Shown in pieces: positions 4,770 through 23,626 of a stretch of DNA of 64,000 nucleotides. The notes under the pieces are model-generated. The model made no database searches and had not been told where the DNA came from. It saw only the letters and a list, made by a program, of their open reading frames with translations. Position 1 is the first letter of the stretch; each line of letters opens with the position of its first letter. The DNA lies in contig NZ_FTMN01000004.1 of the NCBI RefSeq assembly GCF_900155945.1, positions 186,001 to 250,000 of the forward strand. Reading direction: 5' to 3'. The translations under genes were made by a program, and so were the position numbers. This stretch comes from Marinobacterium stanieri (lineage in GTDB: Bacteria; Pseudomonadota; Gammaproteobacteria; Pseudomonadales; Balneatricaceae).

Positions 4770-4877
4770 GGGTACAACCACTCCAAATATTCAGGGTCCA
4801 GTAAGGCTAACAGAACAGATATAACCAGGTGAATTAAAACCCTAAAAAACCGATTGAATTTAAACGCTTAGCTCAAA

Positions 4878-6901: not shown

Positions 6902-7675
6902 TCATTCCCAGCGTGCAGCCAGCAGCCCCAGTGTTTCGTAGAAAGCTCGTTCGCTCTTTCGCAAATGACGCGCTGAAGGTATCCAGTATCCAAGCGTATC
7001 GCGATCATCCCTGAGCGCAAGGTAATGGGTAGGAGCCGGTATAGGCTGCAGACCGGCAGCACGGAAGTGTTTTACAGCTCGGGGCATATGCGAGGCTGAG
7101 GTAACCAGTATCAATGAAGCCCCCTGCCCCAGCAAACGTGCAGCGGCCTGAGCTTCTTCGCCCGTATCTCTGGGCTCGGTTAATGCCAGGATATGCGGCT
7201 CAGGTACGCCCAACTGATGCGCCAAAGCAGCATACCCCAACGCCATAGCAGGAATATCAGGGCGCCGGTCAGTACCGCTCACGATAAGCGGAAGATCAGG
7301 TGCCTGTTGCCATAAACGCAGCCCTTCGGCCAAGCGGTTTATCGCTGCACCGGACAGCTGACCCGTTAGTGTCCACGGCTGATTGGGCTGATAATCTGCT
7401 CCAAGCACCATCACTGCTTTGGGCTGCTGATCGTGGGGAAAGGCAACAAGAGAGGGGTAGTCCGACTCAAAAGGCTGTAACAGGCGATCAGCCACTGGCG
7501 CCCAGCTCAACAGGGCCAGACTAATGACTGAAACACACATACAAATACGCCCAGCCCCACGCCGAACACCCAAAATCATGCCGATCAAGAACAGGCCAAA
7601 GCATATCGGCAAAGGCATCAGCAAGTAGGCAGCCAGCACCTTTACCAGCGTATATAAGTCAAAACCCATCATCAT
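6902..7675 (-). CDS. DUF218 (ElyC/SanA/YdcF) family inner-membrane protein
   Basis: 257 residues. Two N-terminal hydrophobic segments (residues about 8-35 and 43-60) are followed by a DUF218 domain with the motifs VMVLGADY, LPLIVSGTD, ALTEPRDTGEEAQAA and LILVTSASHMPRA. The ElyC branch affects undecaprenyl-phosphate use and envelope integrity; the biochemical activity is not settled. Placement inside a lipid-linked glycan operon, between the phosphoglycosyl transferase and wbpM, fits a role in Und-P metabolism, but that is inference. Spacing is 24 bases to the gene upstream and 53 to wbpM. Confidence 0.85.
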   Translation of the reverse strand: MMMGFDLYTLVKVLAAYLLMPLPICFGLFLIGMILGVRRGAGRICMCVSVISLALLSWAPVADRLLQPFESDYPSLVAFPHDQQPKAVMVLGADYQPNQPWTLTGQLSGAAINRLAEGLRLWQQAPDLPLIVSGTDRRPDIPAMALGYAALAHQLGVPEPHILALTEPRDTGEEAQAAARLLGQGASLILVTSASHMPRAVKHFRAAGLQPIPAPTHYLALRDDRDTLGYWIPSARHLRKSERAFYETLGLLAARWE

Positions 7676-7699: not shown

Positions 7700-8251
7700 T
7701 CACTGTCGAATACGGTCGCCCGTCCCTTTGCCCAGTACAGTCAGTACGATAAAGCGAAAATAACTGGCGAGACTCAAACCACGAATCATCTCTGCATCAA
7801 CTTCTGCCAAATGCTCGGGAGTCGACATATCAACACCGTTCACTTGAGCAAGACCCGTAATCCCCGGGCGAACATTAAAAACGCCCTTACTGCTTCTTGC
7901 TTCAGTCAGCTCAGCTTGATTAAACAAGCCAGGTCGCGGCCCTACCAGGCTCATCTCTCCCTTGAGCACATTCCACAACTGCGGCAGCTCATCAAGTTTG
8001 GTGCGACGCAAAAAGCGACCAAAAGGCGTAACACTGGAGGCACTGGCAAGATGAGTTGCTACGGATGCCGTATCGACCGACATGGTCCTGAATTTGACCA
8101 GTGTAAACGGCTTCAGGTGCCGCCCTACGCGTTCCTGGCGAAACAAGGGTGAACCTGTATCAAAAAAACCGATAACGAGCAGTAGCAATAACACCGGTGC
8201 CCCAAGCACCAGCCCCAACAGCGAGAAAACGATATCCAGACAACGAATCAA
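7700..8251 (-). CDS. Small monotopic phosphoglycosyl transferase (PglC-like)
   Basis: 183 residues: the minimal catalytic form of the bacterial sugar transferase family, as in PglC, without the multi-span N-terminus of WbaP/WcaJ. A re-entrant hydrophobic segment lies at residues 5-28. The core motifs are [43 protein letters not shown] and [12 protein letters not shown]. It would transfer a sugar-1-phosphate to undecaprenyl phosphate and start the glycan. The WbpM and WbpV-like enzymes nearby suggest UDP-QuiNAc or a related 6-deoxy amino sugar as donor (inference). A pair of REPs lies in the 125 bases between it and the gene upstream. Confidence 0.93.
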
Positions 8252-8376: not shown

Positions 8377-9303
8377 TCACTCAAAACACCTTTTCATACC
8401 CTCGGCGAACGAATACGGCGGCTCCCAATCCAGCAACCTTTTAGTCTCACTGATATCCACCTGCAACGACCCCAGCACTTTCTCAGCCATTGCCTTCTTA
8501 CCCAACACACTTGCCCCTGCCCACAACAGGGGCTCAGGTACAGGGATCAACCTGGATGACTTACCCATCCCCTCAGCAATTCCCCGCAGAATCTGAGTGG
8601 TAGACACATCTTCATCATCGCCAGCAAATATAACCTGGTTTGCTGCAGCCGGATGATCAATGCACACACGAATCAAATCTACCAAATTATCCAGCCCTAC
8701 CAGGGTGCGTTGATTATGCACAGCGCCCAAAGGCAAAGGAATGCCTTTCTCAACCCAGCGCACCAAACGGCCAAAGTTTCCAGGCGCATTAGCCCCATAC
8801 ACCAAGGGCGGACGGATGATAACCACTTCCATATCGGTCTGTTCAGCAATGTGCACCAACCCCTGCTCTGCTTCCCATTTGGACTGAGCGTAAGGTTCAG
8901 AGGGGTTAGGGCGATCGTTTACTGTAAACGGTGCTTTATTGCTGACGCCATTGACACCAATGGAGCTCAGGAAGATGAAGCGTTTGACGCCAGCTTTAGC
9001 GGCTTGTCGGGCGAGGTTTAGGGTGCCGTCGACGTTTACGGTGCGGAAGGTAGCTAGAGGATCTAAGCTATTATGGGTGGTGATGTGGGCGCGGGCAGCT
9101 GTGTGAATCACAACATGCTGACCAGACAGGGCTTCAAAAAAGTCAGTATCAGAACCAATACTTGGCATTACAATCAAGTCGTCCACAAGCAGTTGAACAG
9201 GACGGCGAACAGTCGCAAAAACCCTAAAAAACGGCTTGGACGACAACTCTATTGCAGCGTTACAACCGATAAAACCGTTTGCGCCAGTAAGTAGTATGTT
9301 CAT
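8377..9303 (-). CDS. Extended SDR, WbpV-like UDP-4-keto-sugar reductase or UDP-sugar 4-epimerase
   Basis: 308 residues. N-terminal NAD(P) motif GANGFIG at residues 7-13; active-site YAQSK (S/YxxxK) in the middle; PLVYGANAPGNFGRL and QRTLVGLDNLVDLI are typical of the GalE-related group next to WbpL/WecA-type transferases. In Pseudomonas wbp loci the equivalent WbpV reduces UDP-4-keto-6-deoxy-GlcNAc, the WbpM product, to UDP-QuiNAc. That assignment follows the context; an epimerase is the alternative. GC content is back to the genome norm here, unlike the AT-rich glycosyltransferase gene 14 bases upstream. Confidence 0.85.
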   Translation of the reverse strand: MNILLTGANGFIGCNAAIELSSKPFFRVFATVRRPVQLLVDDLIVMPSIGSDTDFFEALSGQHVVIHTAARAHITTHNSLDPLATFRTVNVDGTLNLARQAAKAGVKRFIFLSSIGVNGVSNKAPFTVNDRPNPSEPYAQSKWEAEQGLVHIAEQTDMEVVIIRPPLVYGANAPGNFGRLVRWVEKGIPLPLGAVHNQRTLVGLDNLVDLIRVCIDHPAAANQVIFAGDDEDVSTTQILRGIAEGMGKSSRLIPVPEPLLWAGASVLGKKAMAEKVLGSLQVDISETKRLLDWEPPYSFAEGMKRCFE

Positions 9304-9317
9304 GATAGGACTATATA

Positions 9318-10547
9318 TTAATGACTGAAAATAATACTTGAATACTTTTTGGCTAGCATTCCATACTCATATTGTTCTAAAGCCGATTTGCGCCCGTTTT
9401 GTCCCATTTTTTCTCTTTCCGAAACTGGCATTTGATACAATTTCAATACTGCACTAGCAAGCTTTTCTGAGTTCTCTGCCGGAATTTGAAATCCTGCACC
9501 ATTCTCAGAAACCGGTTCATAATCACCAGACTCTATACCATAAATTACAGGTTTTGCCGCGTAAAAATAATCAAATAGTTTATTAGGTGACACTCCATAA
9601 AGGAACAATGGGTCTTTCTTAAGACCAATATAGCAAACATCAAACCTGCTAAGCATTGCTTGAATTTCAGCCTTATGGATAGCATTGATAAAGATAACAT
9701 TGTTGAGTTTTTTCGAGCTAACTAGAGACTGTAAATGAAATCTTTCTTTACCATCACCAACAAGGACAAAACAAATTTCAGAATAGTTTTTTAACTTTTC
9801 AGCTGCTTCAATCAAAGTATCCAACGCATTAGTGACCCCCATTGTTCCAGTATATCCAATGATAAATTTATCACTTGGTACTTGGCTTGCTACATTTTTA
9901 TTCAAAAGTATATTTTTCTGTACTTCTTCTAGTGAAAAACCGTTTGGAATCCATGTAAATTTTTCATGTGGCAGGCCATGATTTTTCATATGACGGAAAG
10001 AGTTTTTCAAATTTGATATTACCAGATCAGATTTCTTGTACGCCCTTTCTTCAATCAACTGCATCATCCAAATAAATGGATTATTCCTACGGTATCCACC
10101 TATATCGACAAGAGTTAAAGGCCATATATCCCTCACTTCAAAGACCAGCTTTGAGCAATATTTTTTAGCGATATATTCAGCACCCAAAAAAGATAATAAG
10201 GAAGGCGAAGAGCAAACAACTACATCAGGCTTATCCGTAATGAGTTTGGGAAGCTTACAAATAGCCCAGGAGAAAAAAAACCAACCTAAAACTCTTTTTT
10301 TACTATGTGCTTCCTTATAGGAAGGCACATCACACCAAACCATGCTAAATTTATTTGTTACTGTCTCAACTTTAAAACTTTTATTAATATCAGGCCTACT
10401 CCTTAAAAGATGATGGTTTGCAGATGAAATTAAATAGACTTTATATCCAAGTTTGGCCAACTCCTTACCCAAATAATAATGTCGACCGGCAAATCCATAA
10501 TCCGGTGTGGAAGCATATTGGTTAACAATCCAAATAGTTTTACTCAT
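9318..10547 (-). CDS. GT4-family glycosyltransferase (WbuB-like)
   Basis: 409 residues. The N-terminus MSKTIWIVNQYASTPDYG resembles WbuB-type amino-sugar transferases. A GT-B fold is indicated by an N-terminal Rossmann half and a C-terminal half with FIIGYTGTMGVTNALD, ICFVLVGDGKER and SPNKLFDYFYAAKPVI, the last carrying the nucleotide-sugar-binding glutamate region in modified form. It is probably cytosolic and membrane-associated, adding one sugar to the Und-PP-linked chain. The gene is AT-rich compared with wbpI and the SDR gene on either side, which suggests replacement by transfer. It lies three bases from the wbpI stop. Confidence 0.9.
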   Translation of the reverse strand: MSKTIWIVNQYASTPDYGFAGRHYYLGKELAKLGYKVYLISSANHHLLRSRPDINKSFKVETVTNKFSMVWCDVPSYKEAHSKKRVLGWFFFSWAICKLPKLITDKPDVVVCSSPSLLSFLGAEYIAKKYCSKLVFEVRDIWPLTLVDIGGYRRNNPFIWMMQLIEERAYKKSDLVISNLKNSFRHMKNHGLPHEKFTWIPNGFSLEEVQKNILLNKNVASQVPSDKFIIGYTGTMGVTNALDTLIEAAEKLKNYSEICFVLVGDGKERFHLQSLVSSKKLNNVIFINAIHKAEIQAMLSRFDVCYIGLKKDPLFLYGVSPNKLFDYFYAAKPVIYGIESGDYEPVSENGAGFQIPAENSEKLASAVLKLYQMPVSEREKMGQNGRKSALEQYEYGMLAKKYSSIIFSH

Positions 10548-10550
10548 CTA

Positions 10551-11618
10551 TCAGCCTTTGCAAAGTTGCTTAACTATTCTTTCTGCAGCCATCCCCCCAC
10601 CATAAAGCTGAATAGTGTCTTTCACATTGCGGCCTATATTGCGTATAGTTCCATCAATTATCTTATTTTTATCAGCACCCACTAGCTCATTGGCACCAAA
10701 ATCAATAAGTTCTACCCATTCAGTTTGATCTCGCATTGTTACGCAAGCTTTCCCGAAAAAGAAGGCTTCCTTCTGAACCCCTCCGCTGTCAGTCAATACC
10801 AGCTCGCAGTGATCCAGCAGCCAGATCATCTCGAAATAACCTACAGGACTGATCATGTGAACTCTCAGTTCCAGCCCTTGTAGAGCGATCATCTGACGGG
10901 TGCGCGGATGAAGCGGAAGGACTACAGGTGCGAACGATGTGTTGATCTCGTTCAATGCTGCCACGATTGCAGCCAGGCGCTCAGGATTATCGGTATTTTC
11001 GGCACGGTGCAAGGTGGCCAAGATGAAGCCCTCAGGCAAACCACCCGTTGGGGCGCGAGCTTTTTTAGCAAACAACAGCGCCGAGTCCTGCATTACATCG
11101 CCTACCTGCAGTACGTGCACTTGCCTGTGGGCAAAGCCTTCGTTATTAAGGTTATTCACGGCGGTATTGGTGGGGCAGAACAACAAGTCACTGATCTGAT
11201 CGGTGAGGATACGGTTTATCTCTTCCGGCATCTGCATGTTAAAGCTGCGCAGCCCCGCCTCTACATGAGCAACGGGGATATGTAGTTTGGCTGCAGCAAG
11301 AGCACCGGCCAAGGTAGAGTTGGTATCGCCGTATACTAGTACACGGTCAGGCTTGTGCTTGAGCAACGCCTGTTCAATTTCTGCCAGCATGCGACCGGTC
11401 ATTTGACCATGGCTGCCACCATGGATATCAAGTTGGATATCCGGTCGCGGGATACTGAGCTGGTTAAAGAAGATTTCTGACATATTAGAATCAAAATGCT
11501 GGCCAGTATGTAGAATAACTTCTTCAATGCTTCCCGATAATTTAGCCATACGTGAAACAACAGATGCCTTTATAAACTGAGGGCGTGCACCTATAACTGT
11601 TAGTATTTTTTTCATCAA
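10551..11618 (-). CDS. wbpI: UDP-2,3-diacetamido-2,3-dideoxyglucuronate 2-epimerase (WbpI-like, WecB fold)
   Basis: 355 residues, which fits WbpI (about 354) better than WecB (about 375). Motifs of the non-hydrolysing 2-epimerases are present: VIGARPQFIKA, HTGQHFD, VYGDTNSTLAGALAA, AHVEAGLRSFN, MPEEINRILTDQ and LTDSGGVQKEAFFFGK. With WbpA, B, D and E in the same operon, the likely reaction is UDP-GlcNAc(3NAc)A to UDP-ManNAc(3NAc)A; plain UDP-GlcNAc 2-epimerase is the alternative. The middle of the gene has ordinary GC, but the last 150-200 bases are AT-rich, which suggests a recombination join inside the gene. The start is ATG 11616-11618 or the next codon. Confidence 0.88.
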   Translation of the reverse strand: MMKKILTVIGARPQFIKASVVSRMAKLSGSIEEVILHTGQHFDSNMSEIFFNQLSIPRPDIQLDIHGGSHGQMTGRMLAEIEQALLKHKPDRVLVYGDTNSTLAGALAAAKLHIPVAHVEAGLRSFNMQMPEEINRILTDQISDLLFCPTNTAVNNLNNEGFAHRQVHVLQVGDVMQDSALLFAKKARAPTGGLPEGFILATLHRAENTDNPERLAAIVAALNEINTSFAPVVLPLHPRTRQMIALQGLELRVHMISPVGYFEMIWLLDHCELVLTDSGGVQKEAFFFGKACVTMRDQTEWVELIDFGANELVGADKNKIIDGTIRNIGRNVKDTIQLYGGGMAAERIVKQLCKG

Positions 11619-11754: not shown

Positions 11755-13179
11755 CTATATTTTAAAGTATCTCTTTATTAGAAGAAGCTCTTTATCACTA
11801 AAAAATTTAAAGTAAAAAACTGATGAAACAAATAATAAAATTAATAGTAATTTATAGACAATATACGAACCATAAGAAGCCATAAAAAACTTACCAATAA
11901 GAACAATTAAAAGGCTTAAAGAAAAAGACTTTAACAACAATATCCAGTCGTGAGGAACATAATATAGATTTTGACTATTGTAAATAAAATAAACAGAAAT
12001 AACTACCGATGAGATTAAAGTAGAAAAAGCAGCCCCTTGCAACCCCCAATATGGAATCATAGTGTAATTTAAAACAAAGCAAATTAAAGCACCGATAAAG
12101 TTGCCTTTTAGAAAAATATCAGTTTTTTTATAAATTACCATTCCAGGCATAAAAATATAAACATTTATAAGAAAAATAGTCGGCATTAATAAAGGAATAA
12201 GTCCTGATGATTCCTTATAATCATCAGTAGAAAAAAAACCAACTATTAAGTCTGAAAACAGGGAAATGACAATAAAGAAAAAGGATGCAAAAATAAAAAA
12301 ACATCTAAAAACAACTTCTATATTTTTAGGTGTTGTTGTTAGCTTATGATAATTATAAATAAGAGGGCTAAATGCAGCTTGAAACCCAGTCATTAATAAG
12401 CCAAATATTGACGATATTTTATAAGCTAGTGAGTATATTGCAACATCTGAAGAGCTCAAATATAAGCCAATCATAACTCTATCAATATACAAAATAGACC
12501 AAACAAACACCCCAGAAAAAACCAAAGGAATAGAGAATCTTAGCATTTTCCTCAAAAAAGTTAAGTCTATAAAAAGAAAAATTTTAAAACGAGCAGAAAG
12601 AAGACTAATAATAAACCCGGACATAGATCCAATCAGAAGCCCCAATAGAATGCCTGCTAAACCGAAATCATAATAAATCGTAAATAAATAAGAAGTGATT
12701 AAAGTAATTATAGAACATAGTATGTTTGAAATGGCATAGTATTTTGGCTTAAAGGAGAATCTCATGTAAGTTTGCATGAAATAAAACATTCCTTGAATCC
12801 AAATATACCCAACACCAATCAAAAATAGAAATTTAAAATCTTCCGTGAGATTAATAAAATTAATTATATAATCTGAAAAAAATACAGCGATAAGAGAAGC
12901 AAGTGTATATAGAAACAGTGAAAACCAAAAAGCTGTTGAAAAAATTAAACTTTTATCTCTGATACTTTTTTCACTATAATAGCGCGCAAAACCTTGATGA
13001 ATTTCAAGAGTCAAAGTTAACTTTACAAAGTGCGAAAAAATCAAAAAAAGATCAAGATTCCCGTACTCATTAACGGTAAGAACCCGAGTATAGAGAGGTA
13101 TTAATAGGAAACCAATACCTCTTGATAGAAAAATTGGTATTGTGTATAAAAAACTATCTTTCAATAATTTATGAATCAT
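11755..13179 (-). CDS. wzx: Wzx-type lipid-linked oligosaccharide flippase (MATE/MOP superfamily)
   Basis: 474 residues, about 12-14 hydrophobic segments spread along the whole length, with the N-terminal FLSRGIGFLLIPLYTRVLTVNEYGNLDLF typical of the polysaccharide-synthesis (PST) family read in parts. It would flip the Und-PP-linked repeat unit across the inner membrane. Codon use is strongly AT-rich, as is common for Wzx in exchangeable glycan cassettes. It lies 12 bases after the glycosyltransferase gene upstream. No Wzy or Wzz gene accompanies it. Confidence 0.9.
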   Translation of the reverse strand: MIHKLLKDSFLYTIPIFLSRGIGFLLIPLYTRVLTVNEYGNLDLFLIFSHFVKLTLTLEIHQGFARYYSEKSIRDKSLIFSTAFWFSLFLYTLASLIAVFFSDYIINFINLTEDFKFLFLIGVGYIWIQGMFYFMQTYMRFSFKPKYYAISNILCSIITLITSYLFTIYYDFGLAGILLGLLIGSMSGFIISLLSARFKIFLFIDLTFLRKMLRFSIPLVFSGVFVWSILYIDRVMIGLYLSSSDVAIYSLAYKISSIFGLLMTGFQAAFSPLIYNYHKLTTTPKNIEVVFRCFFIFASFFFIVISLFSDLIVGFFSTDDYKESSGLIPLLMPTIFLINVYIFMPGMVIYKKTDIFLKGNFIGALICFVLNYTMIPYWGLQGAAFSTLISSVVISVYFIYNSQNLYYVPHDWILLLKSFSLSLLIVLIGKFFMASYGSYIVYKLLLILLFVSSVFYFKFFSDKELLLIKRYFKI

Positions 13180-13191
13180 CTTAAATACCTT

Positions 13192-14499
13192 TTAGGGTTC
13201 TTTGATGAACTCTAAAAAAGCATTTTCAACCTCAGGCCTATGTGAAAGACCAAGTGAATCCACTCCTTTATTTTTTATGATTTTATTTACTGAACATTTT
13301 ATTTCTTCCCTAGATAAGCCAACACCTTCAACATAAATAACGGTATCAGGATGATAGTACCAATCAGCAGGAATGTCATTTTTTATTAGCTTCAAATATC
13401 GCTTAGCCACACACCTTGCATCCCATTTATCCTTAACAAAACCTTCAGATAAATCTCCTATTTTTTTTCTTAATGAATCATCGTCAATCATTTTTTTAAT
13501 CGCACACTTCATTTTTTCGGGATGGCAAGTCATTGTAGGTGGCCACATATCACTGTGAGTAACTTCCTTTAATTTACCTAATCCATAACCTGCAACTACT
13601 GATGGTTTAGAAAACCAAGCGGCTTCTTTAGAGAGGCCGGCCATAGGAGTATCACTGTAAAGCTGATCTACTATGAAGTCACACTTCATAATCTCTAAAA
13701 GTATTTGAGAAAATGGAACACCCTCTATCTCAACATAATCAATTAAATAACCTTCTCTTTTTAACTCACTAATAATATTAAAAATTTTTTCAGTACCTTT
13801 TACATATCTGTGGCTTGGACAATGCAATATTCGTATAGGTTTATTTTTAGAAATATTATTTCTATTAGCATTATACTCACTGGTAGTATAATACGATGGA
13901 AAACCTATATCGAACCAATTTATGAATGGTTTCTTTGAGAAATACGATGTTGATAAAGGTGCTCCAATAATATGAGTGGCATATTTCTGATGCCATTCAA
14001 TCATTCTTTTACTATATCTAACACGCCGCAATATTTCAGTTTCATCTGGCGCAGTACCATCTTTAGAATATAAAGCACCATTAATATATGCCGGTCGAGA
14101 TTCAGACCCTAATCCAATATTCGAAATCACAACCTTACCCATCCATTTTAGAATAGGCAAGTCTAGATTAAATGGAAAAAGAGACCTTCCAAAAGAAAAC
14201 ACAAAAACATCATATTTCAATATTGCTAGAAATGCCCAAATCGCTATCAATATTAATTCAACTATTAACATTGGGTAAAAAAATGGATTTATTTTTCTAA
14301 TCTTATTCCTTTTATTTCCAATTTTTTTACTGAGCAGTATTAGAAAAGGGTCATTATTTTTTTCGGAATATTTAAAATGATGATCTTTATAAGTAACATA
14401 GTCACAATCAACTCCCAATAACTCAAAGCCTTTATGGAGCTGATTGTTATAATTTGCTATTTCAACAGGGGCAATCAGTATTTTTTTTTTAGTTAGCAT
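13192..14499 (-). CDS. Glycosyltransferase-like protein of the AT-rich cassette
   Basis: 435 residues, AT-rich, immediately after the acyltransferase gene (stop and start abut at 14499/14500). The N-terminus KKKILIAPVEIANYNNQLHKG and the C-terminal half (IRILHCPSHRYVKGTEKI, MKCDFIVDQLYSDTPMAGLSKEAA, KPSVVAGYG) suggest a GT-B fold with a distant GT4-like nucleotide-sugar domain. A hydrophobic stretch near residues 75-105 may anchor it to the membrane. The family assignment is loose and the sugar unknown. The last 60 residues match no motif I recognise. Confidence 0.65.
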   Translation of the reverse strand: MLTKKKILIAPVEIANYNNQLHKGFELLGVDCDYVTYKDHHFKYSEKNNDPFLILLSKKIGNKRNKIRKINPFFYPMLIVELILIAIWAFLAILKYDVFVFSFGRSLFPFNLDLPILKWMGKVVISNIGLGSESRPAYINGALYSKDGTAPDETEILRRVRYSKRMIEWHQKYATHIIGAPLSTSYFSKKPFINWFDIGFPSYYTTSEYNANRNNISKNKPIRILHCPSHRYVKGTEKIFNIISELKREGYLIDYVEIEGVPFSQILLEIMKCDFIVDQLYSDTPMAGLSKEAAWFSKPSVVAGYGLGKLKEVTHSDMWPPTMTCHPEKMKCAIKKMIDDDSLRKKIGDLSEGFVKDKWDARCVAKRYLKLIKNDIPADWYYHPDTVIYVEGVGLSREEIKCSVNKIIKNKGVDSLGLSHRPEVENAFLEFIKEP

Positions 14500-15039
14500 T
14501 TATTCTATGTCAGAATCATTTTTTATGGTTGACATTGGACGGCAAGGCGTTCCAAAAGCTTTAGTATCATTTGGTATGTCATTTATTACAAAACTATTAG
14601 CTCCGATAATAGAACCTTGACCTATTGTTACTCCCTTTGATATCACCACATTTGGGCCAATATAACACCTATCCCCAATGTAAGTTTCACTATATTCAAT
14701 TGATTTTAATCCCCCTGAAATAGTTTTCTCCACTGTATCATGTGAATAAATTTGAACACCTGCAGATATGGTACAATTAGACCCTATTCTAAGCCCACCA
14801 CTGCCATCTAATATGGTATATGGCCCAATCCATGTATCTTTTCCTACAGATACATCACCTAGAACTAAGCAGCTATCATAGACGGATGTTCCACTGCCAA
14901 AACCTAGAGTTTTGGATTTTTCCCACCTGTCAACAATATAGTCACCAAACGGGAGTGTTCTACAAAACTTATTATTAATTTCAACCTGTTTACCTAACCA
15001 GAATCTCTTTAAAAAATAAAAAAATATTTTTTTAATCAT
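14500..15039 (-). CDS. Left-handed beta-helix acyltransferase (hexapeptide, LbetaH)
   Basis: 179 residues. Isoleucine-patch hexapeptide repeats run through the middle ([67 protein letters not shown]). The ending GTPCRPM is the usual GxPAK/R close of sugar O- or N-acetyltransferases. The histidine in QIYSHD is a likely catalytic residue. It acts on a sugar nucleotide or lipid-linked sugar; the substrate cannot be read from sequence. It lies between the aminotransferase and the glycosyltransferase genes, so N-acylation of the amino sugar made by its neighbours is one option. Confidence 0.85.
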
Positions 15040-15057
15040 ATTATCAATATTGTATAG

Positions 15058-16167
15058 CTATCCATACATGATTTTATTTAATTTTTCAAATACAAACTCA
15101 GTATCTTCGAAGGTCATTTTTTCATAAAGTGGTAAAGCAAGCCCTTGGTTATGTAAATTTTCTGAATTATTTTTTACTTCACACTCTACTCCCCATATAT
15201 TTATAAAAGACATACTTTGCGCCCCAACACCAGCTTCAACGCCTGATTCATGTAATTTTTTTATGATATTATTTCTATTATGAGAGGGAGCAAGGACAAT
15301 CATGAAGGTTTGCCAGCTATGACCATCTAAATATTCAGGTGTATTTATTAAGTTAGCATTAGCAAGAGGTTTTAATAATTTTAAATATTTATTAACTAAG
15401 GCACGCCGTTTATTAATCCAGCTTTCCAAATATGGCAACTGCTTACGTCCCATTGCAGCCTGAAAATTTGTTAATCGGTAGTTTGTACTCGGTACTATAA
15501 AATCCATACCCCTTTCATTTTTTACCATTCCATGATTTCTTAGCATTCTAAGTTTCGCGGCCATTCTGGAACAGTTGGTCGCTACAGCTCCGCCTTCACC
15601 AGTTGTCAATGTTTTCCTTGGGTGAAAAGAGAAACAGCCTAGGTCGCCAAATGTACCAGCATATCTTTTATTAATATTCGAGCCTAAAGCACATGCTGCA
15701 TCTTCAATTATTTTCAGATCATATTTTGATGCTATTTTTTTAATAGTCTCCATATCAGCAATACAACCAAATTCATGTACAGGCATTATTGCCTTTAATT
15801 TTTCTTCTCCATTCCAATTTTTAACAACATCCTCAAGTAAGTTTGTATCTATCGTATAATTTAAAGGATTAACATCAACGAATACTGGTTGAGCACCACA
15901 CATTGCAACTGCATTTGCGGAAGCCGGAAATGTAAAATCAGGAACTATTACTGCATCACCTTTCCCGATACCTAACGCAATAAGTGAAATATGCAATGCG
16001 GCAGTTCCTGATGAAACAAGTACTACATGTTCACACCCTAAAAAGCTTGCCAACTCTTTTTCGAAAGCTTCAGACTCGGCGCCATGAACTAACTGGCCGC
16101 TTTTAATTACATCTACTACCGATTGAATAGCTTCATCAGGTATATTGGGAGATGCTAATCTCAGCAT
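15058..16167 (-). CDS. DegT/DnrJ/EryC1/StrS family sugar aminotransferase
   Basis: 369 residues, normal for the family. Features: an N-terminal substrate loop (SGQLVHGAESEAFEKELA), the PLP-phosphate region SSGTAALHISLIALGIGKGD, IIEDAACALGSNINKRYAG, and the Schiff-base lysine at about residue 185 in SFHPRKTLTTGEGG. It would transaminate a keto-sugar nucleotide. Its start codon overlaps the stop of the SDR gene upstream (both at 16167), so the two are probably a functional pair. It is distinct from the WbpE aminotransferase two genes upstream and belongs to the AT-rich cassette. Confidence 0.9.
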   Translation of the reverse strand: MLRLASPNIPDEAIQSVVDVIKSGQLVHGAESEAFEKELASFLGCEHVVLVSSGTAALHISLIALGIGKGDAVIVPDFTFPASANAVAMCGAQPVFVDVNPLNYTIDTNLLEDVVKNWNGEEKLKAIMPVHEFGCIADMETIKKIASKYDLKIIEDAACALGSNINKRYAGTFGDLGCFSFHPRKTLTTGEGGAVATNCSRMAAKLRMLRNHGMVKNERGMDFIVPSTNYRLTNFQAAMGRKQLPYLESWINKRRALVNKYLKLLKPLANANLINTPEYLDGHSWQTFMIVLAPSHNRNNIIKKLHESGVEAGVGAQSMSFINIWGVECEVKNNSENLHNQGLALPLYEKMTFEDTEFVFEKLNKIMYG

Positions 16168-17159
16168 TACTTTTCCTTAAATATTTTTGATAAATCTGGC
16201 AGAGAGTTTTCGTTTTTTGAAATCCAATCCGCAGTTAACTCAATACCTTCATTCAAATCAATTCTTGCCTCAAATCCCATTATACTTTTAGCTTTTTCAC
16301 ACTTTGGAATTCTTAATTCAATATCTGCTGACAGAGAATCTTTGAATACAATTTTAGATTTGCTTTTTAGTATTCTGCACACTGATTCTGCCAGCCCGTA
16401 AATAGTTGTCACTGCACGCGCATTACCAATATTAAAAGATTCTCCAACTGCATCTTCATGCTCCAAGCATTTCAGAACTCCGCTTACCATATCATCAACA
16501 TAACACCAAGCTCTTATTTGGCTACCATCTCCAAATATAAATAAGTCCTCCCCTTTAAGAGCTTTCCTTATAAAAATCGATAATGCTCCTTCACCTGTTT
16601 GACCAGGGCCGTACACATTGAAAGGCCTTACTGTCACAGTAGGGAGTCCATACTGCTTATAGTACGCATGAGCCATATGCTCACCAGCAAGCTTGCTTAC
16701 TGCGTAAGTCCATCTTGCTTCACCTACTGCACCCGTTACGGCATGATTAAGCTCATCAACCTTATAAGCATTTGAGCCAAATACTTCAGAAGTAGAAAAA
16801 TCGACAAATCTTTCAATAGTGCCTATTTCTTGCGCAACCTGTAAGACATTTGCGGTGCCAATCATGTTGACCCGCATTGTTGAGACCGGATTTTTTACTG
16901 TAGATTCGATACCTGCTATTGCTGCTGCATGAATGACAATATCTGAACCTTGCATGTGCTGTCTTAGCACTTCCAAGTCAAGAATATCACCTTTTATCTT
17001 AGTTATATTATGATGTTCCGAAAAATCTGTATAATCTAGTGAGTTTCGAGTGTAGTTATCGAAGGAAATTATTTTGTTGTTACCAGCAAGCTGAGAGATT
17101 AAACGACTAGCAATAAAGCCAGCACCACCAGTAATGAAAATTTTCTTATCTTTAATCAC
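16167..17159 (-). CDS. Extended SDR sugar-nucleotide epimerase/dehydratase
   Basis: 330 residues. NAD motif GGAGFIA at residues 10-16; active site YAVSKLAGE; then [21 protein letters not shown] and [12 protein letters not shown], both typical of UDP- or dTDP-sugar epimerases/dehydratases. It lies between wbpE and the second DegT aminotransferase. The order SDR, aminotransferase, acyltransferase suggests a second modified amino sugar besides ManNAc(3NAc)A. AT-rich. The exact reaction (4-epimerase, 4,6-dehydratase or other) is not resolved. Confidence 0.85.
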
Positions 17160-17160
17160 T

Positions 17161-18261
17161 TCAGCTTCCTAGTTCTACTTGACTAATAATATCAACCATA
17201 ATTTCAATATCTCTCTCTTTAATATATGCATGCATTGGTAAACTGATAACAGTCTTAGCCATTAAGTCGCCAACACATAAGTAATTATTGTCTGCTTTAA
17301 CAGCAGATTGCTTGTTTAAAGGTATAGGATAATGCACCGCCGTAGGAATACCTACTTTCTTCAACTCTTGCTGTACACGCCTGCGCTTTTTCACACGGAT
17401 TGTGTATTGCGCCCATGCAGAAACATTGTGTTTTTCCACATGAGGATTAGTATAGATCCCCGCCTTGTTTAAATAGTAAGTGTATTTATTTGCAACTTGA
17501 TTTCGCAATTTTATCTCTTCAGATAACAATTCAAATTTAGCTAGTAAAATAGCCGCCTGCAATGTATCTAACCGACTATTAACACCCACTCGAACATGGT
17601 GATAACGTTTATCCTGACCATGACGTGCGATCTGGCGGATTACTTTGGCCAAGTCTTCATCGCTGGTAAATATTGCTCCCCCATCTCCATAACAGCCAAG
17701 CGGTTTACTTGGGAAAAAACTGGTACAGGCAATCGTAGTCAGGTTGCAGGACTTTTTCCCCTTGTAACTGGCCCCAAAGCTTTGTGCAGCATCTTCGATC
17801 ACGGGTATACCGTGTTTTGCCGCAATAGCGTTGATTGCATCAAAGTCAGCGCACTGACCATACAGACTCACCGGAATTATTGCTTTAGTATTGGGGGTTA
17901 TGGCTGCTTCAAGCAGGTTCGGATCCAGGTTGTAGGTTTTTGGATCGATATCTATGTATACCGGCTTAGCGCCCAGCAAGGCAACGGTTTCGGCTGTCGC
18001 GATATAGCTGAAGCCAGGTACAATCACCTCATCACCCGCCCCAACCCCAAGTGCCATTTGGGCTATTTGCAGGGCATCGGTGCCATTACCACATGTGATG
18101 CAGTATTTGGACCCCGTGTAAGCGACAAGCTTTTCTTCAAGCTCAGTCACTTCTGGGCCAAGGATGTATTGGCCGTGGGCAAGTACTTTTTGGATACCGG
18201 CGTCAATTTTGTCTTTGATGCGGCTCTGTTGGGCGGCCAGGTCTATAAATTGCATAGTCAT
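17161..18261 (-). CDS. wbpE: UDP-2-acetamido-2-deoxy-3-oxo-glucuronate aminotransferase (WbpE-like)
   Basis: About 366 residues. The N-terminus [20 protein letters not shown], then [11 protein letters not shown], matches WbpE closely. The PLP lysine is at about residue 186 in [16 protein letters not shown]. It aminates the 3-keto product of WbpB to UDP-GlcNAc(3NH2)A. The longer frame back to 18288 starts with a GTG inside a REP element and reads MGAHSVRDK, so ATG 18259-18261 (or 18253-18255) is preferred. The first two thirds of the gene have ordinary GC, while the last 400 bases are AT-rich like the cassette that follows. This marks a probable recombination boundary inside the gene. Confidence 0.93.
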
Positions 18262-18265
18262 TTTA

Positions 18266-18289
18266 TCGCGCACGGAGTGCGCTCCCACA
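18266..18289. repeat. REP between wbpD and wbpE
   Basis: A single intact REP (core GCGCACGGAGTGCGC on the + strand) fills the 32-base gap between the wbpD stop and the wbpE start. It creates a misleading in-frame GTG and lies within the operon transcript. Confidence 0.85.
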
Positions 18290-18293
18290 ATGG

Positions 18294-18878
18294 TTACACA
18301 GTTTGCTGCTTGATGAGCTTTGTGCCACTTAGCGTGTAGTTTTCACCCGTATGTTCACAGACGGCAGAGGTTTCTCCGCTGAGTGGTAGATCCAGCTGCT
18401 CACCAAACTCGCTCATCCAGCCGATCTGCTTTGCCGGCACCCCTACCATCAGCGCATAGGCGGGTACATCCTTATTGATAACAGCACCAGCACCAATAAA
18501 GGCATACTCGCCAATGGTCACACCACACACGATGGTGCAGTTAGCGCCTAAAGTGGCGCCTTTTTTGACAAGGGTATCGCGGTATTCATTTTTGCGCTCG
18601 ATCAGAGAGCGGGGGTTATATACATTGGTAAACACCATGCTGGGACCGCAGAAAACGCCTTCTTCCAAGTGTACATTGTCATATACCGAGACGTTATTCT
18701 GGATTTTACATTGATCACCAATGGTGACCTTGTTGCCAACAAAAACGTTTTGGCCAAGGGATACACCTTTGCCGATTTTGGCCCCGCTGCAGACATGGAC
18801 GAAGTGCCAAACACGTGACCCTTCGCCGATCTGAGCTCCATCGTCTACGATGGCAGATTCATGAACTTGGTAATTCAT
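18294..18878 (-). CDS. wbpD: UDP-2-acetamido-3-amino-2,3-dideoxyglucuronate N-acetyltransferase (WbpD-like)
   Basis: About 194 residues from ATG 18876-18878 (GGAAG nine bases upstream); an ATG six bases earlier is also possible. Left-handed beta-helix hexapeptide repeats run from [13 protein letters not shown] through [13 protein letters not shown] and [21 protein letters not shown], closing with [11 protein letters not shown]. It uses acetyl-CoA to acetylate the 3-amino group made by WbpE. It sits directly between wbpB and wbpE, as expected for this pathway. Confidence 0.93.
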
Positions 18879-18912
18879 ACACATTCACTTCCGAGGCAAG
18901 CGCCAACAAGAA

Positions 18913-19878
<966 letters not shown>

Positions 19879-21207
19879 TCAGGCCTTTACGATATGCGCG
19901 GCGGGTTCACGAAATTTACCGCGGCTGTCGACGATCAAGTTCGCATGCTGCTTGATCAGTTCATAGTCAAAACGATCATGATCAGTTGCTATGACAACGG
20001 CATCGAAGCTGGAAAGATTTTCGGGTGTAAGCGGCTCACTGGACAATTCAAAGAAATGTTCACGCATTTTAGGGAATACTGGGACATGGGGGTCTGCATA
20101 TGCAACCTTGCCACCTTTCGCCTCTATCAGCTCCATAATTTCGACTGAAGGCGACTCTCGCATGTCATCTACATTCTTTTTATAAGCAATTCCCAGCACC
20201 AATATTTTACTGTTCTTAAGTGCTTTGCCGGCCTCGTTCAGTCCATCCATCAACTTGCTGACCACATACTCCGGCATGGCACGATTCACTTCACCTGACA
20301 GCTCAATGAAACGGGTGTGTACACCATACTCTCGGGCCTTCCATGTCAGATAGAAAGGGTCAACTGGAATACAATGCCCTCCTAAACCGGGGCCGGGGTA
20401 GTAAGCAGTAAACCCGAACGGTTTGGTTTTGGCAGCATCAACCACTTCAAAGATATCAATACCCATGCGGTCAGCAACAATCTTCATTTCGTTGACCAGA
20501 CCTATATTCACAGCACGATGAATATTTTCCAGTAGCTTGGTCATTTCAGCAGCCTTGGTTGAGCTAACCGGCACGACCTGATCGATGGCTTGTTCATACA
20601 AGGCTTTTCCTGCTTCCAGGCATGATGAAGTGTGCCCACCAACAACTTTGGGAATAGTACGTGTTTCGAAATCCTGATTTCCCGGATCTTCGCGTTCAGG
20701 GGAGTAAACCAGAAAAATATTAGCACCGACCTGGAGCCCTGCAGACTGAACACGGGGCAATAATTCTTCTTCAGTTGTTCCCGGATAGGTCGTACTTTCC
20801 AGTGATATCACCTGCCCGGCACGCAAAAATGGCTGCAACGCATCAACAGTCTTGATCACGAAGCTGATATCTGGCTCACGAAACTTGTTCAGTGGTGTAG
20901 GAACACAAAGAATCAATGCATCACATTCCCCTGCACGCCTGAAATCAGTTGTCGCTTCAAACCCTGCCGTTATAGCCCCACGAATACTATCAACTGAAAT
21001 GTGCTCTATGTAGCTTTTGCCAGCGTTAAGCTGATCTACTTTTTCAGCATCAATATCAATACCAATAACTCTGAAGCCAGAGTCCATGTACCGCAGCATC
21101 AACGGTAATCCAACATACCCAAGCCCAACGATGCCAATGAAGGCTTCTTTATTTCTAAACTTGGCAATTGTTGTTTCAAGCGTTGGCATAATATTGGTTA
21201 TATCCAT
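19879..21207 (-). CDS. wbpA: UDP-N-acetylglucosamine 6-dehydrogenase (WbpA-like)
   Basis: 442 residues, UDP-glucose/GDP-mannose dehydrogenase family. The NAD motif GLGYVGLPL is near residue 29. The catalytic cysteine is at about residue 278 in [14 protein letters not shown], and the C-terminal domain shows [20 protein letters not shown]. It makes UDP-GlcNAcA from UDP-GlcNAc with 2 NAD+, the first step towards UDP-ManNAc(3NAc)A. No clear ribosome site precedes either ATG (21207 or the internal one at 21190), so the start is uncertain. It is second in the operon, 65 bases after the beta-CASP gene. Confidence 0.93.
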
Positions 21208-21272: not shown

Positions 21273-22898
21273 CTATCTAACGGCCAGTTCTTCATTCACT
21301 AGTAGCAATCTTTTCTTCAATCCTTGTATAGCCTTCTTATCGCCATGAACTAGTCTGATTTCTTCAGGCGCTACCTCTATTCCTTCAAAAAAACTAACCA
21401 AATCATCCTGATCCGCATGCGCTGAATACCCTCCAATCGTCTCCACACCAGCTCGTATGTCTATCTTTTCATCGTCCAGCCAAACATACCCGCTTGTAGG
21501 TCCGTAACGCTGTATATCCCGACCGGGCGTACCCTCTGCCTGATAGCCAACAAACAGAACGTCGTGACGGGGGTCTGGCAACATGGCCTTGAGATAGTTA
21601 ACAATCCGCCCCGCATTACACATGCCGCTGCCGGCGATGACGATAGCCGGGCGACCTGAAGTGGACAGGTGTTTAACCATTTTCAGGTGGTCGTGATGGC
21701 TGTCTATTGTGAGCAGTTGGTCAAAGGCCAAAGGGCGGCGACCCTGGTCAAGGCGCTCTTGTGCTTCTTCGTCCCAGAAAGGTTTCATATCTCGGTAGGC
21801 CTTGGTGAAGCGGCTGGCGAGTGGGGAGTCGAGGATGACAGGGATTTGGGTGGGGAGTGAGTCTTTGAGGTTGGGGCTTTTACTTATTCGCGCGCGGAGC
21901 GCGCTCCCACATGCATCACTCCCACATGCACTGTCCTCACAACTACAGCACTCACATACATTAATCCCGCATGTATTGTCCTCATCTGAGTTGGTCCCAC
22001 AGAGTTCATTTCCAGAGGACTCACCTCTTCGATCCTCAGTCTCACAAATGCCACACCCAGCGTCATCGTTTATTGAACGCTTTTCGCCTCCGTTGCCACT
22101 ATGATCAGGGGCTGCGCTCCACCCCATTTCCAGTAACTCTTCCAGTTCATAGAGAAGTTCTTGGGTACGGCCGATGCTGAAAGCGGGTATTAAAACAGTT
22201 CCTTTGTTCTGCAATGCACGGTCAATCGCTGATTTCAGGCGCTCTATGCGTGTTTCTCGGTTCTCATGAACACGGTCACCATAAGTGCTTTCAAGTACCA
22301 GTATGTCCGCTTTTTCCGGTGATACCGGTGGCGGCAATAAGGGTGTGTTACTTGAGCCCAAGTCACCCGAGAATACGATGCGTTTGTTCTTGCCTTTATG
22401 CGTCAGGTCTAGCTCCACATAGGCAGAGCCAAGGATATGGCCTGCGCGCTGGAGTCTAAGCTTAAGGTCACAGTCAGGTTGGTTGATTAGACTAAACCAC
22501 TGCTTGTACGGCACTGCTATTATGAGGTCATTCACCATGGCGAGGTAGGGCTCCACATGGCGGCTGTCTCGGCTGATACCCAGCTTGAATGCATCCTCCA
22601 ACACAAGCGGCAGAAGGTGGGCGGATGGCTGGCTGCAAATAATCGGGCCACGGAAGCCGGCCGCGAGCAGGCCAGGAATGCGGCCTACATGATCGATGTG
22701 AACGTGTGTCACAATTAATGCCAACACGCCTTCGACCGAAAATCCCAAATGTTGCGGGTGCAGACTTGGGTCGGTTTCATCACCTTGAAACAACCCACAG
22801 TCCACCAGAACACTCAGGTTCTCATCGATTCTGAGCTGATGACAGGAACCTGTAACACCGTCTTCTGCGCCATGGTGCTCAATCGAGAGATAAGGCAC
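21273..22898 (-). CDS. Beta-CASP metallo-beta-lactamase (RNA-specificity type) with an inserted low-complexity segment
   Basis: 541 residues from GTG 22896-22898, which has AAAGGAG seven bases upstream; the open frame to 23003 runs over the ops leader and is not believed. The metallo-beta-lactamase domain shows THVHIDHVGR (motif II) and VFSGDLGSSNTPLL. The beta-CASP/RMMBL part shows VLIPAFSIGRTQELLYELEELL, IVIAGSGMCNAGRIVNYLK and GYSAHADQDDLVSFF. These proteins are usually nucleases of the CPSF73 type and about 455-460 residues long. The extra 80 or so residues (about 263-345) are Cys/Ser/Asp-rich, contain a REP and interrupt the beta-CASP domain. First gene of the ops-headed glycan operon; RNA cleavage is the family expectation, not shown here. 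Confidence 0.88.
   Translation of the reverse strand: MPYLSIEHHGAEDGVTGSCHQLRIDENLSVLVDCGLFQGDETDPSLHPQHLGFSVEGVLALIVTHVHIDHVGRIPGLLAAGFRGPIICSQPSAHLLPLVLEDAFKLGISRDSRHVEPYLAMVNDLIIAVPYKQWFSLINQPDCDLKLRLQRAGHILGSAYVELDLTHKGKNKRIVFSGDLGSSNTPLLPPPVSPEKADILVLESTYGDRVHENRETRIERLKSAIDRALQNKGTVLIPAFSIGRTQELLYELEELLEMGWSAAPDHSGNGGEKRSINDDAGCGICETEDRRGESSGNELCGTNSDEDNTCGINVCECCSCEDSACGSDACGSALRARISKSPNLKDSLPTQIPVILDSPLASRFTKAYRDMKPFWDEEAQERLDQGRRPLAFDQLLTIDSHHDHLKMVKHLSTSGRPAIVIAGSGMCNAGRIVNYLKAMLPDPRHDVLFVGYQAEGTPGRDIQRYGPTSGYVWLDDEKIDIRAGVETIGGYSAHADQDDLVSFFEGIEVAPEEIRLVHGDKKAIQGLKKRLLLVNEELAVR
21887..21911. repeat. REP inside the beta-CASP gene
   Basis: Intact REP (core GCGCGCGGAGCGCGC) translated in frame as CGSALRARI. 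The adjoining 21912-22010 contains decayed TCCCACATGCA-like units, suggesting that the whole segment 21864-22110 grew around REP-derived DNA without breaking the frame. Confidence 0.85.
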
Positions 22899-22926
22899 TT
22901 TACAACTCCTTTTGCTTCCCTGCTGA

Positions 22927-22938
22927 CACGCTACCGCC
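22927..22938 (-). promoter_or_regulatory. ops element (RfaH recruitment site) in the operon leader
   Basis: The minus strand reads GGCGGTAGCGTG, identical to the ops sequence that pauses RNA polymerase and loads RfaH. It lies 28 bases upstream of the GTG start of the beta-CASP gene, ahead of its AAAGGAG ribosome site, and rfaH is divergent about 200 bases away. The rest of the longer JUMPstart consensus is not conserved. A possible upstream promoter is weak: TATACT (22978-22983) with TTGCTC (22998-23003) at a short 14-base spacing. Confidence 0.88.
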
Positions 22939-23134
22939 CGGAGGTTGCTCGGGCGATCCTCAATACCCTGTAATTCCAGTATATTTATGCTCATCCTGAG
23001 CAATGCCTAGCCGCCAGTTTGTTAAAGCAGCCGTTGCTGATGATACTGATGCAGAGGCCTTTTGTAAGCTGTCGCCAGAGCATAACAGGCTTGTATCAAC
23101 ATAATTGTAGATAATAGGTTAACAAGGAGCCCAA

Positions 23135-23626
23135 GTGTCGGACTTAAAGTGGTATTTAATTCAGTCCAAACCGGGCCAGGCGCAACGGGCCGCACAGGAG
23201 CTCACAAACCAGGGCTACGAAGTATTTCTGCCCACTCTTACTACAGAGAAACTGAAGACGGGCAAGCGTGTTGAGCAAATCGAGCCTCTGTTTCCTGGCT
23301 ATGTATTTATTGAGCTTTCCGAACTCAACAGCAACTGGCGTCCGATCCGTTCAACTCGTGGGGTCGCACGCTTGGTCAGCTTTGGTAATGCTCCTGCAGT
23401 GGTCCCCTACGATGTGGTCGAGCTGTTACGCGAAAAGGCGCGAAACCAGACCGTGCAGGTATCACTGGAAGCCAATAAACCTGTCAACATTACTGAAGGC
23501 CCTTTCAAACACCTCAACGCGATTTTTGTTGAGTATGATGGTGAGCAACGTGCCTTTCTCTTACTCGAGCTGCTGGGCAAATGGCAGCGGCTATCCTTAC
23601 CTTTGACCCATATTAAAAGCGTCTGA
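23135..23626 (+). CDS. rfaH: Transcription antiterminator RfaH (NusG paralogue)
   Basis: 163 residues, the normal RfaH length. The N-terminal NGN domain starts KWYLIQSKPGQAQRAAQEL and includes LFPGYVFIEL; the C-terminal KOW-type domain starts near VNITEGPF. The GTG start at 23135 is fixed by AAGGAG at 124-129 of the same 100-base block (23124-23129). In Escherichia coli, RfaH binds ops in the non-template strand, suppresses Rho termination and recruits ribosomes on long LPS and capsule operons. Here it is divergent from an operon whose leader has an exact ops, so local control of that operon is likely. mgtE follows 18 bases later and may share its transcript. Confidence 0.95.
   Translation: MSDLKWYLIQSKPGQAQRAAQELTNQGYEVFLPTLTTEKLKTGKRVEQIEPLFPGYVFIELSELNSNWRPIRSTRGVARLVSFGNAPAVVPYDVVELLREKARNQTVQVSLEANKPVNITEGPFKHLNAIFVEYDGEQRAFLLLELLGKWQRLSLPLTHIKSV

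Follow-up and report, generated by a model that had tools for sequence, protein, structure and literature searches.

An exact ops element between a divergent rfaH gene and a polysaccharide run headed by a beta-CASP nuclease gene in Marinobacterium stanieri

In a 64,000-nucleotide stretch of the Marinobacterium stanieri genome (contig NZ_FTMN01000004.1, positions 186,001 to 250,000; hereafter the window), rfaH, a gene of the NusG/Spt5 family, lies on the plus strand and diverges from a long leftward run of polysaccharide genes (Table 1). The leader of that run carries, on the minus strand at 22938-22927, an exact copy of the ops element GGCGGTAGCGTG. From ops to the GTG start codon (22898) of the first leftward gene, which encodes a nuclease-type protein of the beta-CASP group, the spacing is 28 nt (22899-22926), and 196 nt separate the start of rfaH from the 5' end of ops. 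These values bear out a first-pass annotation of the window, which had placed an exact ops 28 bases before the first gene and rfaH about 200 bases away in the opposite direction.

The ops site, its leader and the RfaH protein

An ops is defined as a 12-nt element in a leader with the start codon within 100 nt (PMC11001881), a description that the window site fits. The genome searched comprises 4,680,330 bases in 24 contigs and is 98.67% complete. The exact 12-mer occurs once in these 4.68 Mb, and 28 other sites differ from it by one mismatch (29 with the window site). A simple open reading frame (ORF) caller marked even the true ops site as coding, as ops itself lies within an open frame, and leader sequence was therefore used to judge the other sites. 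Of these 29 sites, the window site alone has the leader element known from relatives, and both marks of the extended leader are found at none of the 28 others. Three GGCGGTAGC[C/T]TG sites, in which position 10 is changed, were considered as further targets and rejected, all of them lying inside coding sequence. The genome-wide search for other ops leaders that the first-pass annotation had proposed thus returns a single exact copy and no second site with the leader marks. A longer reading of the first gene, from a TTG at 23003 through ops, is possible; homology and the ribosome-binding site AAGGAG favour the GTG at 22898. The window site is best read as a genuine ops, with the neighbouring operon as its only visible target.

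Directly upstream of ops lies a candidate hairpin, GAGG:CCTC; an alternative pairing, GCCCG:CGGGC, overlaps ops in the window leader. Leader ops sites in relatives often have a short inverted repeat just upstream, which is CGGGA:TCCCG or CAGGA:TCCTG in other groups. Shuffle tests of individual sites were weak: p fell below 0.05 at 5 of 64 leader sites (median 0.23) and at 2 of 23 matches in coding sequence (median 0.56). When an alignment of 12 rows (group B) was shuffled 500 times, the number of cells changed on both sides was reached in 0 shuffles, the covariation score in 2, the number of pairs changed on both sides in 83 and the number of further pair types in all 500. For the window's own group (group A, 22 rows), the corresponding figures out of 500 were 12 for the covariation score, 39 for pairs, 61 for cells and 341 for types; with the 3' arm shifted by a single column, slightly more cells were paired (85.6 vs 84.1%). 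The rows were chosen by eye as alike and sites with other leaders were left out, so the test is biased toward structure. Support for the hairpin is modest and mixed, and since a stem-loop in JUMPstart elements has been described earlier (PMC2864571), it is not claimed as new. The Rfam JUMPstart model (RF01707) scores 14.8 bits at the window leader, below its gathering cut-off of 35, and a scan of 13 loci (the window and 12 relatives) gave one match at E-values up to 0.5, of 26 bits.

The RfaH protein of the window passes the cut-offs of two RfaH equivalog models, TIGR01955 (157.1 bits; cut-off 144.5) and NF006534 (143.1; cut-off 124), and does not reach that of the NusG model. Identities as UpxY (74 vs a cut-off of 100) and LoaP (56.8 vs 125) were rejected. 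The solved structures that score best are those of RfaH, and a fold search returned RfaH, NusG and Spt5 structures. Four of the five ops-contact residues of Escherichia coli RfaH (K10, R16, H20, T72 and R73) are conserved, as K12, R18, T74 and R75. The autoinhibition pair E48-R138 is kept as E50 and R139, which occur in 42 and 45 of the 45 rows of alignment A1, respectively; F130 is also kept, and I93 is replaced by V. Residue roles are those given in PMC2871177 and PMC7593976. The first-pass annotation had likened the arrangement to that of dedicated NusG paralogues, a likeness that holds for the layout and fails for the protein, which the equivalog models and the majority of the contact residues mark as RfaH.

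Recurrence of the pairing and its interpretation

The family sample comprised 116 genomes, 44 with an RfaH-like match (E-value 2.3e-18 or better), and 45 loci were examined; two rfaH fragments were dropped (G094 C16, start not found, and G097 C3). At the level of the order, 293 genomes drawn from a larger group were searched, 94 of which had a match at E 1e-20, and 80 of 90 places outside the family were taken. Left out were nine weak or truncated places and G331, an apparent duplicate of the Bacterioplanes locus L050. Pairing counts leave position 10 free (motif GGCGGTAGCNTG) and require leader direction.

With an exact GGCGGTAGCNTG, ops is divergent and at most 1 kb upstream of rfaH in 9 of the 45 family loci; in 8 others it points in the same direction, 450-1200 nt away from where rfaH begins, giving 17 loci with an exact adjacent ops (26 if one mismatch is allowed). 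In the other families of the order the corresponding figures are 3 divergent and 24 downstream, together 27 of 80 (39 with one mismatch), and ops also lies downstream of rfaH in both Bacterioplanes and Thalassolituus. Over all surveyed RfaH loci, an exact nearby ops was found in 46 of 127, 34 downstream of rfaH and 12 divergent. Reversed and complemented control motifs without mismatch occurred at none of the 45 family and none of the 80 order loci. With one mismatch in leader direction, the complemented motif occurred once in each set and the reversed motif in neither; ops itself, without mismatch, stood on the wrong strand beside rfaH at 1 of 45 and 1 of 80 loci. Family genomes with RfaH (44) contain on average 3.18 exact ops, those without (72) 0.32 (Mann-Whitney p 1e-9), the reversed motif averaging 1.43 and 0.97 (p 0.049). 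That the match in the window is a coincidence is hardly credible: a 12-mer is short and the genome holds its 28 other one-mismatch sites, but ops recurs in the same rfaH zones of relatives, and the control motifs, absent beside rfaH at all 125 loci, led us to reject this explanation.

On the RfaH tree the divergent layout stands in three separate places, and six changes are needed, of which five are required by branches with good support. The regulator and its site are indeed neighbours, as had been annotated; that this layout is exceptional is not borne out for the order, with 46 of 127 loci paired, mostly with ops downstream. Likewise, the pairing recurs across relatives and is not strictly kept, being present in 3 of the 7 RfaH genomes of the genus. 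Two further variants were seen at these loci. Of the 10 RfaH-positive genomes of one genus (g12), 5 share the fixed ops variant TGCGGTAGCCTG downstream of rfaH (L076, L078, L079, L081 and L083). At L216 (G177) and L071 (G050), an ops-like site on the rfaH strand lies 57 and 18 nt before the match, hinting at self-regulation or chance.

Eight genomes of the genus were sampled, seven with RfaH. An ops lies within 300 bp of rfaH in G000, G002 and G003, whereas in G004 the distance is 4.35 kb; in G001, G005 and G006 no exact ops was found within the 16-20 kb fetched around rfaH. G005 has a one-mismatch site 6.8 kb from rfaH, directed toward it and not counted as a leader. The rfaH surroundings are in part common to these genomes: mgtE follows rfaH in G000, G001 and G003, and G005 shares other genes of the right flank. 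The operon's place beside rfaH is occupied in G006 by a Sel1 relative and gcvP, and in G005 by a BCCT transporter and a chemoreceptor gene. In G001, where the contig stops 2.3 kb from rfaH, a mannose-1-phosphate guanylyltransferase/isomerase gene without ops (L058:771-2201) stands there, together with a Sel1 relative. G001, G005 and G006 each carry one intergenic exact ops elsewhere, heading 8-11 ORFs in the stretch fetched, and in all three the first gene after it encodes a beta-CASP protein like that of the window. The signal and the first gene therefore travel together, whether or not rfaH is their neighbour, and in this genus ops and the beta-CASP gene form the head of such operons.

These comparisons bear on an alternative possibility, to which we give somewhat less than even odds, namely that adjacency is a by-product. 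The rfaH site would then be an insertion hot spot whose cargo brings its own ops, RfaH acting in trans and nearness playing no role. Cargo and ops do vary at the rfaH site of the genus, and ops/beta-CASP operons are also located away from rfaH; yet ops stands beside rfaH in many families and in two orientations, which is more than one hot spot would give. Such an origin can be compatible with a working site, as it denies only the role of nearness.

Taken together, these observations lead us, at a probability of roughly 85%, to read the locus as a working ops/RfaH pair, in which the adjacent rfaH would encode the reader of a genuine ops and so drive the leftward polysaccharide operon. A leftward promoter between rfaH and the first gene would make the leader, and RNA polymerase would pause at ops, where RfaH produced from its own divergent transcript could load. 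Loaded RfaH would then take the polymerase, and the ribosomes, through 16-17 genes with an AT-rich core, the transcription of which would otherwise be cut short by Rho and NusG. As the two genes diverge, nascent RfaH could not get to the operon by loading in cis on the polymerase that transcribes rfaH, and recruitment should therefore need ops despite the short distance.

Several points weigh against this interpretation. The leftward promoter match is weak (9/12). The window protein has E22 in place of H20, which belongs to the five positions where substitution strongly impairs the action of E. coli RfaH on ops (PMC2871177), and NWR in place of the HTT motif. The AlphaFold model shows the KOW domain as a beta-barrel and not as the autoinhibited alpha hairpin, on a shallow alignment and without an E. 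coli control. No ops was found in the searched zones of 60 of the 127 loci even at one mismatch; adjacency is frequent, yet not the rule, and the loci are related, hence the pairing counts are not independent.

The AlphaFold result raises the possibility that this RfaH is not autoinhibited (monomorphic, beta) and acts by proximity, ops being a relic or a pause site only. A relative's RfaH with another gene order is also modelled with a beta-barrel KOW from similarly shallow, family-based input without a control, the two alignments comprising only 45 and 30 rows. A 2026 preprint (PMC13015549) describes beta-RfaH proteins that function independently of ops in the vicinity of long operons, and proposes that monomorphic RfaH acts in cis without it. 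The share of RfaH genes adjoining an operon is given there as 17 of 212 for the metamorphic, 8 of 12 for the mixed and 7 of 10 for the monomorphic form. Nevertheless, we consider this unlikely for the window: four of the five contact positions of PMC2871177 and the E48-R138 pair are conserved, the ops sequence is identical in distant relatives, and the divergent orientation of rfaH precludes co-translational loading in cis onto the operon. A working ops/RfaH pair thus remains the reading we prefer.

The beta-CASP gene and the polysaccharide run

Pfam finds three domains in the product of the first gene after ops, Lactamase_B (the metallo-beta-lactamase, MBL, fold), Beta-CASP and RMMBL, and the motif HVHIDH can be read directly in its sequence, an instance of the HxHxDH motif of MBL/beta-CASP ribonucleases. 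Domains and motif together place the protein in that superfamily, in agreement with the annotation of the first target as a putative nuclease and not a sugar gene. Its best solved relative is the RNase TTHA0252 (E 2.3e-69), others being archaeal CPSF/FttA, Cas14 and CPSF73/INTS11. Identities as FttA/aCPSF1 (TIGR03675, 251 vs 580.2 bits; KH domain absent in the Pfam scan) and as Type VII Cas14 (NF045584, 311.1 vs 800) were rejected. The protein has 541 aa, compared with 444-503 aa in the 31 relatives examined, and a Cys-rich acidic insertion lies between its MBL and beta-CASP parts, at residues about 258-345.

The ops/beta-CASP head is the new element at this locus. A set of 32 beta-CASP proteins was compiled from 60 genomes with a beta-CASP match, consisting of the best 30 matches with their locus and the proteins of G005 and G002 from other loci. 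It includes 7 of the 33 RfaH-negative genomes with a match, the other 25 proteins coming from 24 RfaH-positive ones. Among these 25, an exact ops lies 30-109 nt upstream of the start in 10 and within 1.5 kb in six more, G002 adding a seventh at 1.6 kb; for the 7 RfaH-negative proteins no exact ops was found within 1.5 kb. RfaH-positive rows group together with a single RfaH-negative one, itself paired with the ops-less second copy of G002, a grouping that is favoured by the choice of rows as closest matches. Around 43 fetched ops sites of mixed quality, a beta-CASP gene follows within 9 kb in 21, several of the sites having far less sequence. The mere presence of a beta-CASP gene hardly follows RfaH (27 of 44 RfaH-positive and 33 of 72 RfaH-negative genomes at E 1e-60); what tracks RfaH is instead the closer beta-CASP clade, and the presence of ops in front. 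In five genomes of another genus (L065-L069; G045, G038, G042, G040 and G041), two exact ops in the same direction, 4.6-15.4 kb apart, lie at the rfaH locus, and a beta-CASP gene follows within 1.5 kb of the second.

The leftward run had been annotated as 17 genes over about 19 kb. It does contain 17 same-strand ORFs, from 22898 to 3597 (19.3 kb, gaps of at most 136 nt), the last of which looks like resident flank. Relatives of this Sel1/SPOR gene adjoin rfaH in G006 (35% identity) and lie one gene off in G001 (59% over 132 aa); it is therefore probably not cargo, which leaves 16 genes as the cargo proper. The G+C content is 31-41% in the core of the run (9-18 kb), compared with 58-60% for the left flank and, up to 30 kb, 48-53% for the right side. 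Promoter-like sites occur within the run, for example at 11646-11618 (46 found, 36.7 expected), and PADLOC gave no match. We infer that the 16-17 genes form one transcription unit.

Table 1. Features of the rfaH/ops locus and of the leftward run (window coordinates)
Feature	Position	Strand	Basis
rfaH, 163 aa, GTG start	23135..23626	+	TIGR01955 score, kept residues
Sigma-70-like promoter candidate of the leftward run, weak	23040..23068	-	9/12 matches; 0.4 expected in shuffles
Candidate hairpin GAGG:CCTC directly upstream of ops	22941..22961	-	relatives, some compensatory changes
Exact ops element GGCGGTAGCGTG	22927..22938	-	sequence read; sole exact genome copy
MBL/beta-CASP/RMMBL ribonuclease-type protein, first after ops, 541 aa	21273..22898	-	domains, HVHIDH, TTHA0252 match
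Nucleotide-sugar (UDP-glucose/ManNAc type) dehydrogenase	19879..21207	-	Pfam, NCBIfam
GFO/IDH/MocA oxidoreductase	18913..19866	-	Pfam
Hexapeptide-repeat acyltransferase	18294..18884	-	Pfam
DegT/DnrJ/EryC1 aminotransferase	17161..18288	-	Pfam
NAD-dependent epimerase/dehydratase	16167..17159	-	Pfam
Second DegT/DnrJ/EryC1 aminotransferase	15058..16167	-	Pfam
Hexapeptide-repeat acyltransferase	14500..15039	-	Pfam
ORF without Pfam or NCBIfam match; possible Wzy-like polymerase, from position only	13192..14499	-	
Wzx-type flippase (Polysacc_synt)	11755..13179	-	family match
UDP-GlcNAc 2-epimerase family	10551..11618	-	family match
Glycosyltransferase group 1	9318..10547	-	family match
NAD-dependent epimerase	8377..9303	-	family match
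Bacterial sugar transferase (Bac_transf)	7700..8251	-	family match
DUF218/ElyC-like protein	6902..7675	-	192.4 bits, below cut-off 205
CapD/PglF-type Polysacc_synt_2 dehydratase	4878..6848	-	family match
Sel1-repeat/SPOR protein, last ORF of the run	3597..4781	-	probably resident flank

Comparison with known systems

The rfaH/ops locus is a variant of a known system, in a layout that is common in this order. Like the RfaH/ops (JUMPStart) system of E. coli, it has a long polysaccharide operon with an AT-rich core and an exact ops in its leader, and an RfaH with most of the DNA-contact residues. It differs in that the regulator is divergent and 196 bp from its site, in that the genome contains a single exact ops, and in a leader upstream of ops that falls short of the Rfam cut-off (14.8 of 35 bits). 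In the capsule operon of Vibrio vulnificus, ops is likewise present and distal genes depend on RfaH (PMC7247339, a review). As with UpxY, TaA, LoaP and the RfaH of Shewanella CL7, the regulator adjoins one long target operon; unlike the operon-encoded NusG paralogues, the window rfaH lies outside the operon, misses the UpxY and LoaP cut-offs and is accompanied by a canonical ops. A 2020 survey found envelope genes over-represented beside rfaH in 7 of 8 clusters and left their recruitment open; it calls the recruitment of operon-encoded paralogues unknown and notes that a detailed mode is established for E. coli RfaH only (PMC7593976). Searches of open-licence papers yielded no report of ops beside rfaH, nor of a beta-CASP gene following ops. 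An exact ops heading many rfaH-neighbour operons suggests that the same recruitment signal is in use. For regulators beside their operon, co-translational loading in cis has been proposed as the route (PMC13015549), and loci with the divergent layout allow it to be told apart from nearness.

Of greatest interest at this locus is its ops/beta-CASP head. The gmhD-rjg O-antigen/capsule loci of Vibrio resemble it in combining a JUMPstart with a beta-lactamase-fold RNA-processing gene that borders a variable polysaccharide locus; in Vibrio cholerae, rjg, the border gene opposite the JUMPstart end, is a predicted beta-lactamase-fold exonuclease in RNA processing (PMC1847822). Vibrio rjg, likened here by description only, usually occupies the far end, and in some V. 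parahaemolyticus types the middle, of the locus (PMC7829505), whereas here the beta-CASP gene comes first after ops.

A more distant likeness is to archaeal FttA/aCPSF1 with Spt5, in that a gene of the same nuclease superfamily (TIGR03675, 251 bits; PDB 9bct, E 2e-43) adjoins one of the NusG/Spt5 family. In archaea, a nuclease of this superfamily ends transcription, with Spt5 bridging nuclease and polymerase (PMC11616081), and termination of stalled transcription complexes is reported for another member, RNase J1 of Bacillus (cited in PMC13289151). The window protein differs from FttA/aCPSF1 in missing the cut-off of 580.2, in having no KH domain found and in having the bacterial TTHA0252 as its nearest solved relative, and the likeness is one of gene neighbourhood. 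By analogy, the arrangement suggests that some RfaH operons may carry a partner nuclease, and through the ops/beta-CASP head a CPSF/FttA-type nuclease may, in a testable way, be linked to a NusG/Spt5 paralogue in bacteria. A stronger form of this idea, that RfaH and the beta-CASP protein are functional partners and that a CPSF/FttA-type nuclease, made first, processes or ends the transcript of the Rho-excluding RfaH complex, is speculative and in our view rather improbable. If true, the ops/beta-CASP head would act as a portable control cassette behind which polysaccharide cargo is exchanged, and the RfaH/beta-CASP pair would be a bacterial counterpart of archaeal Spt5-FttA.

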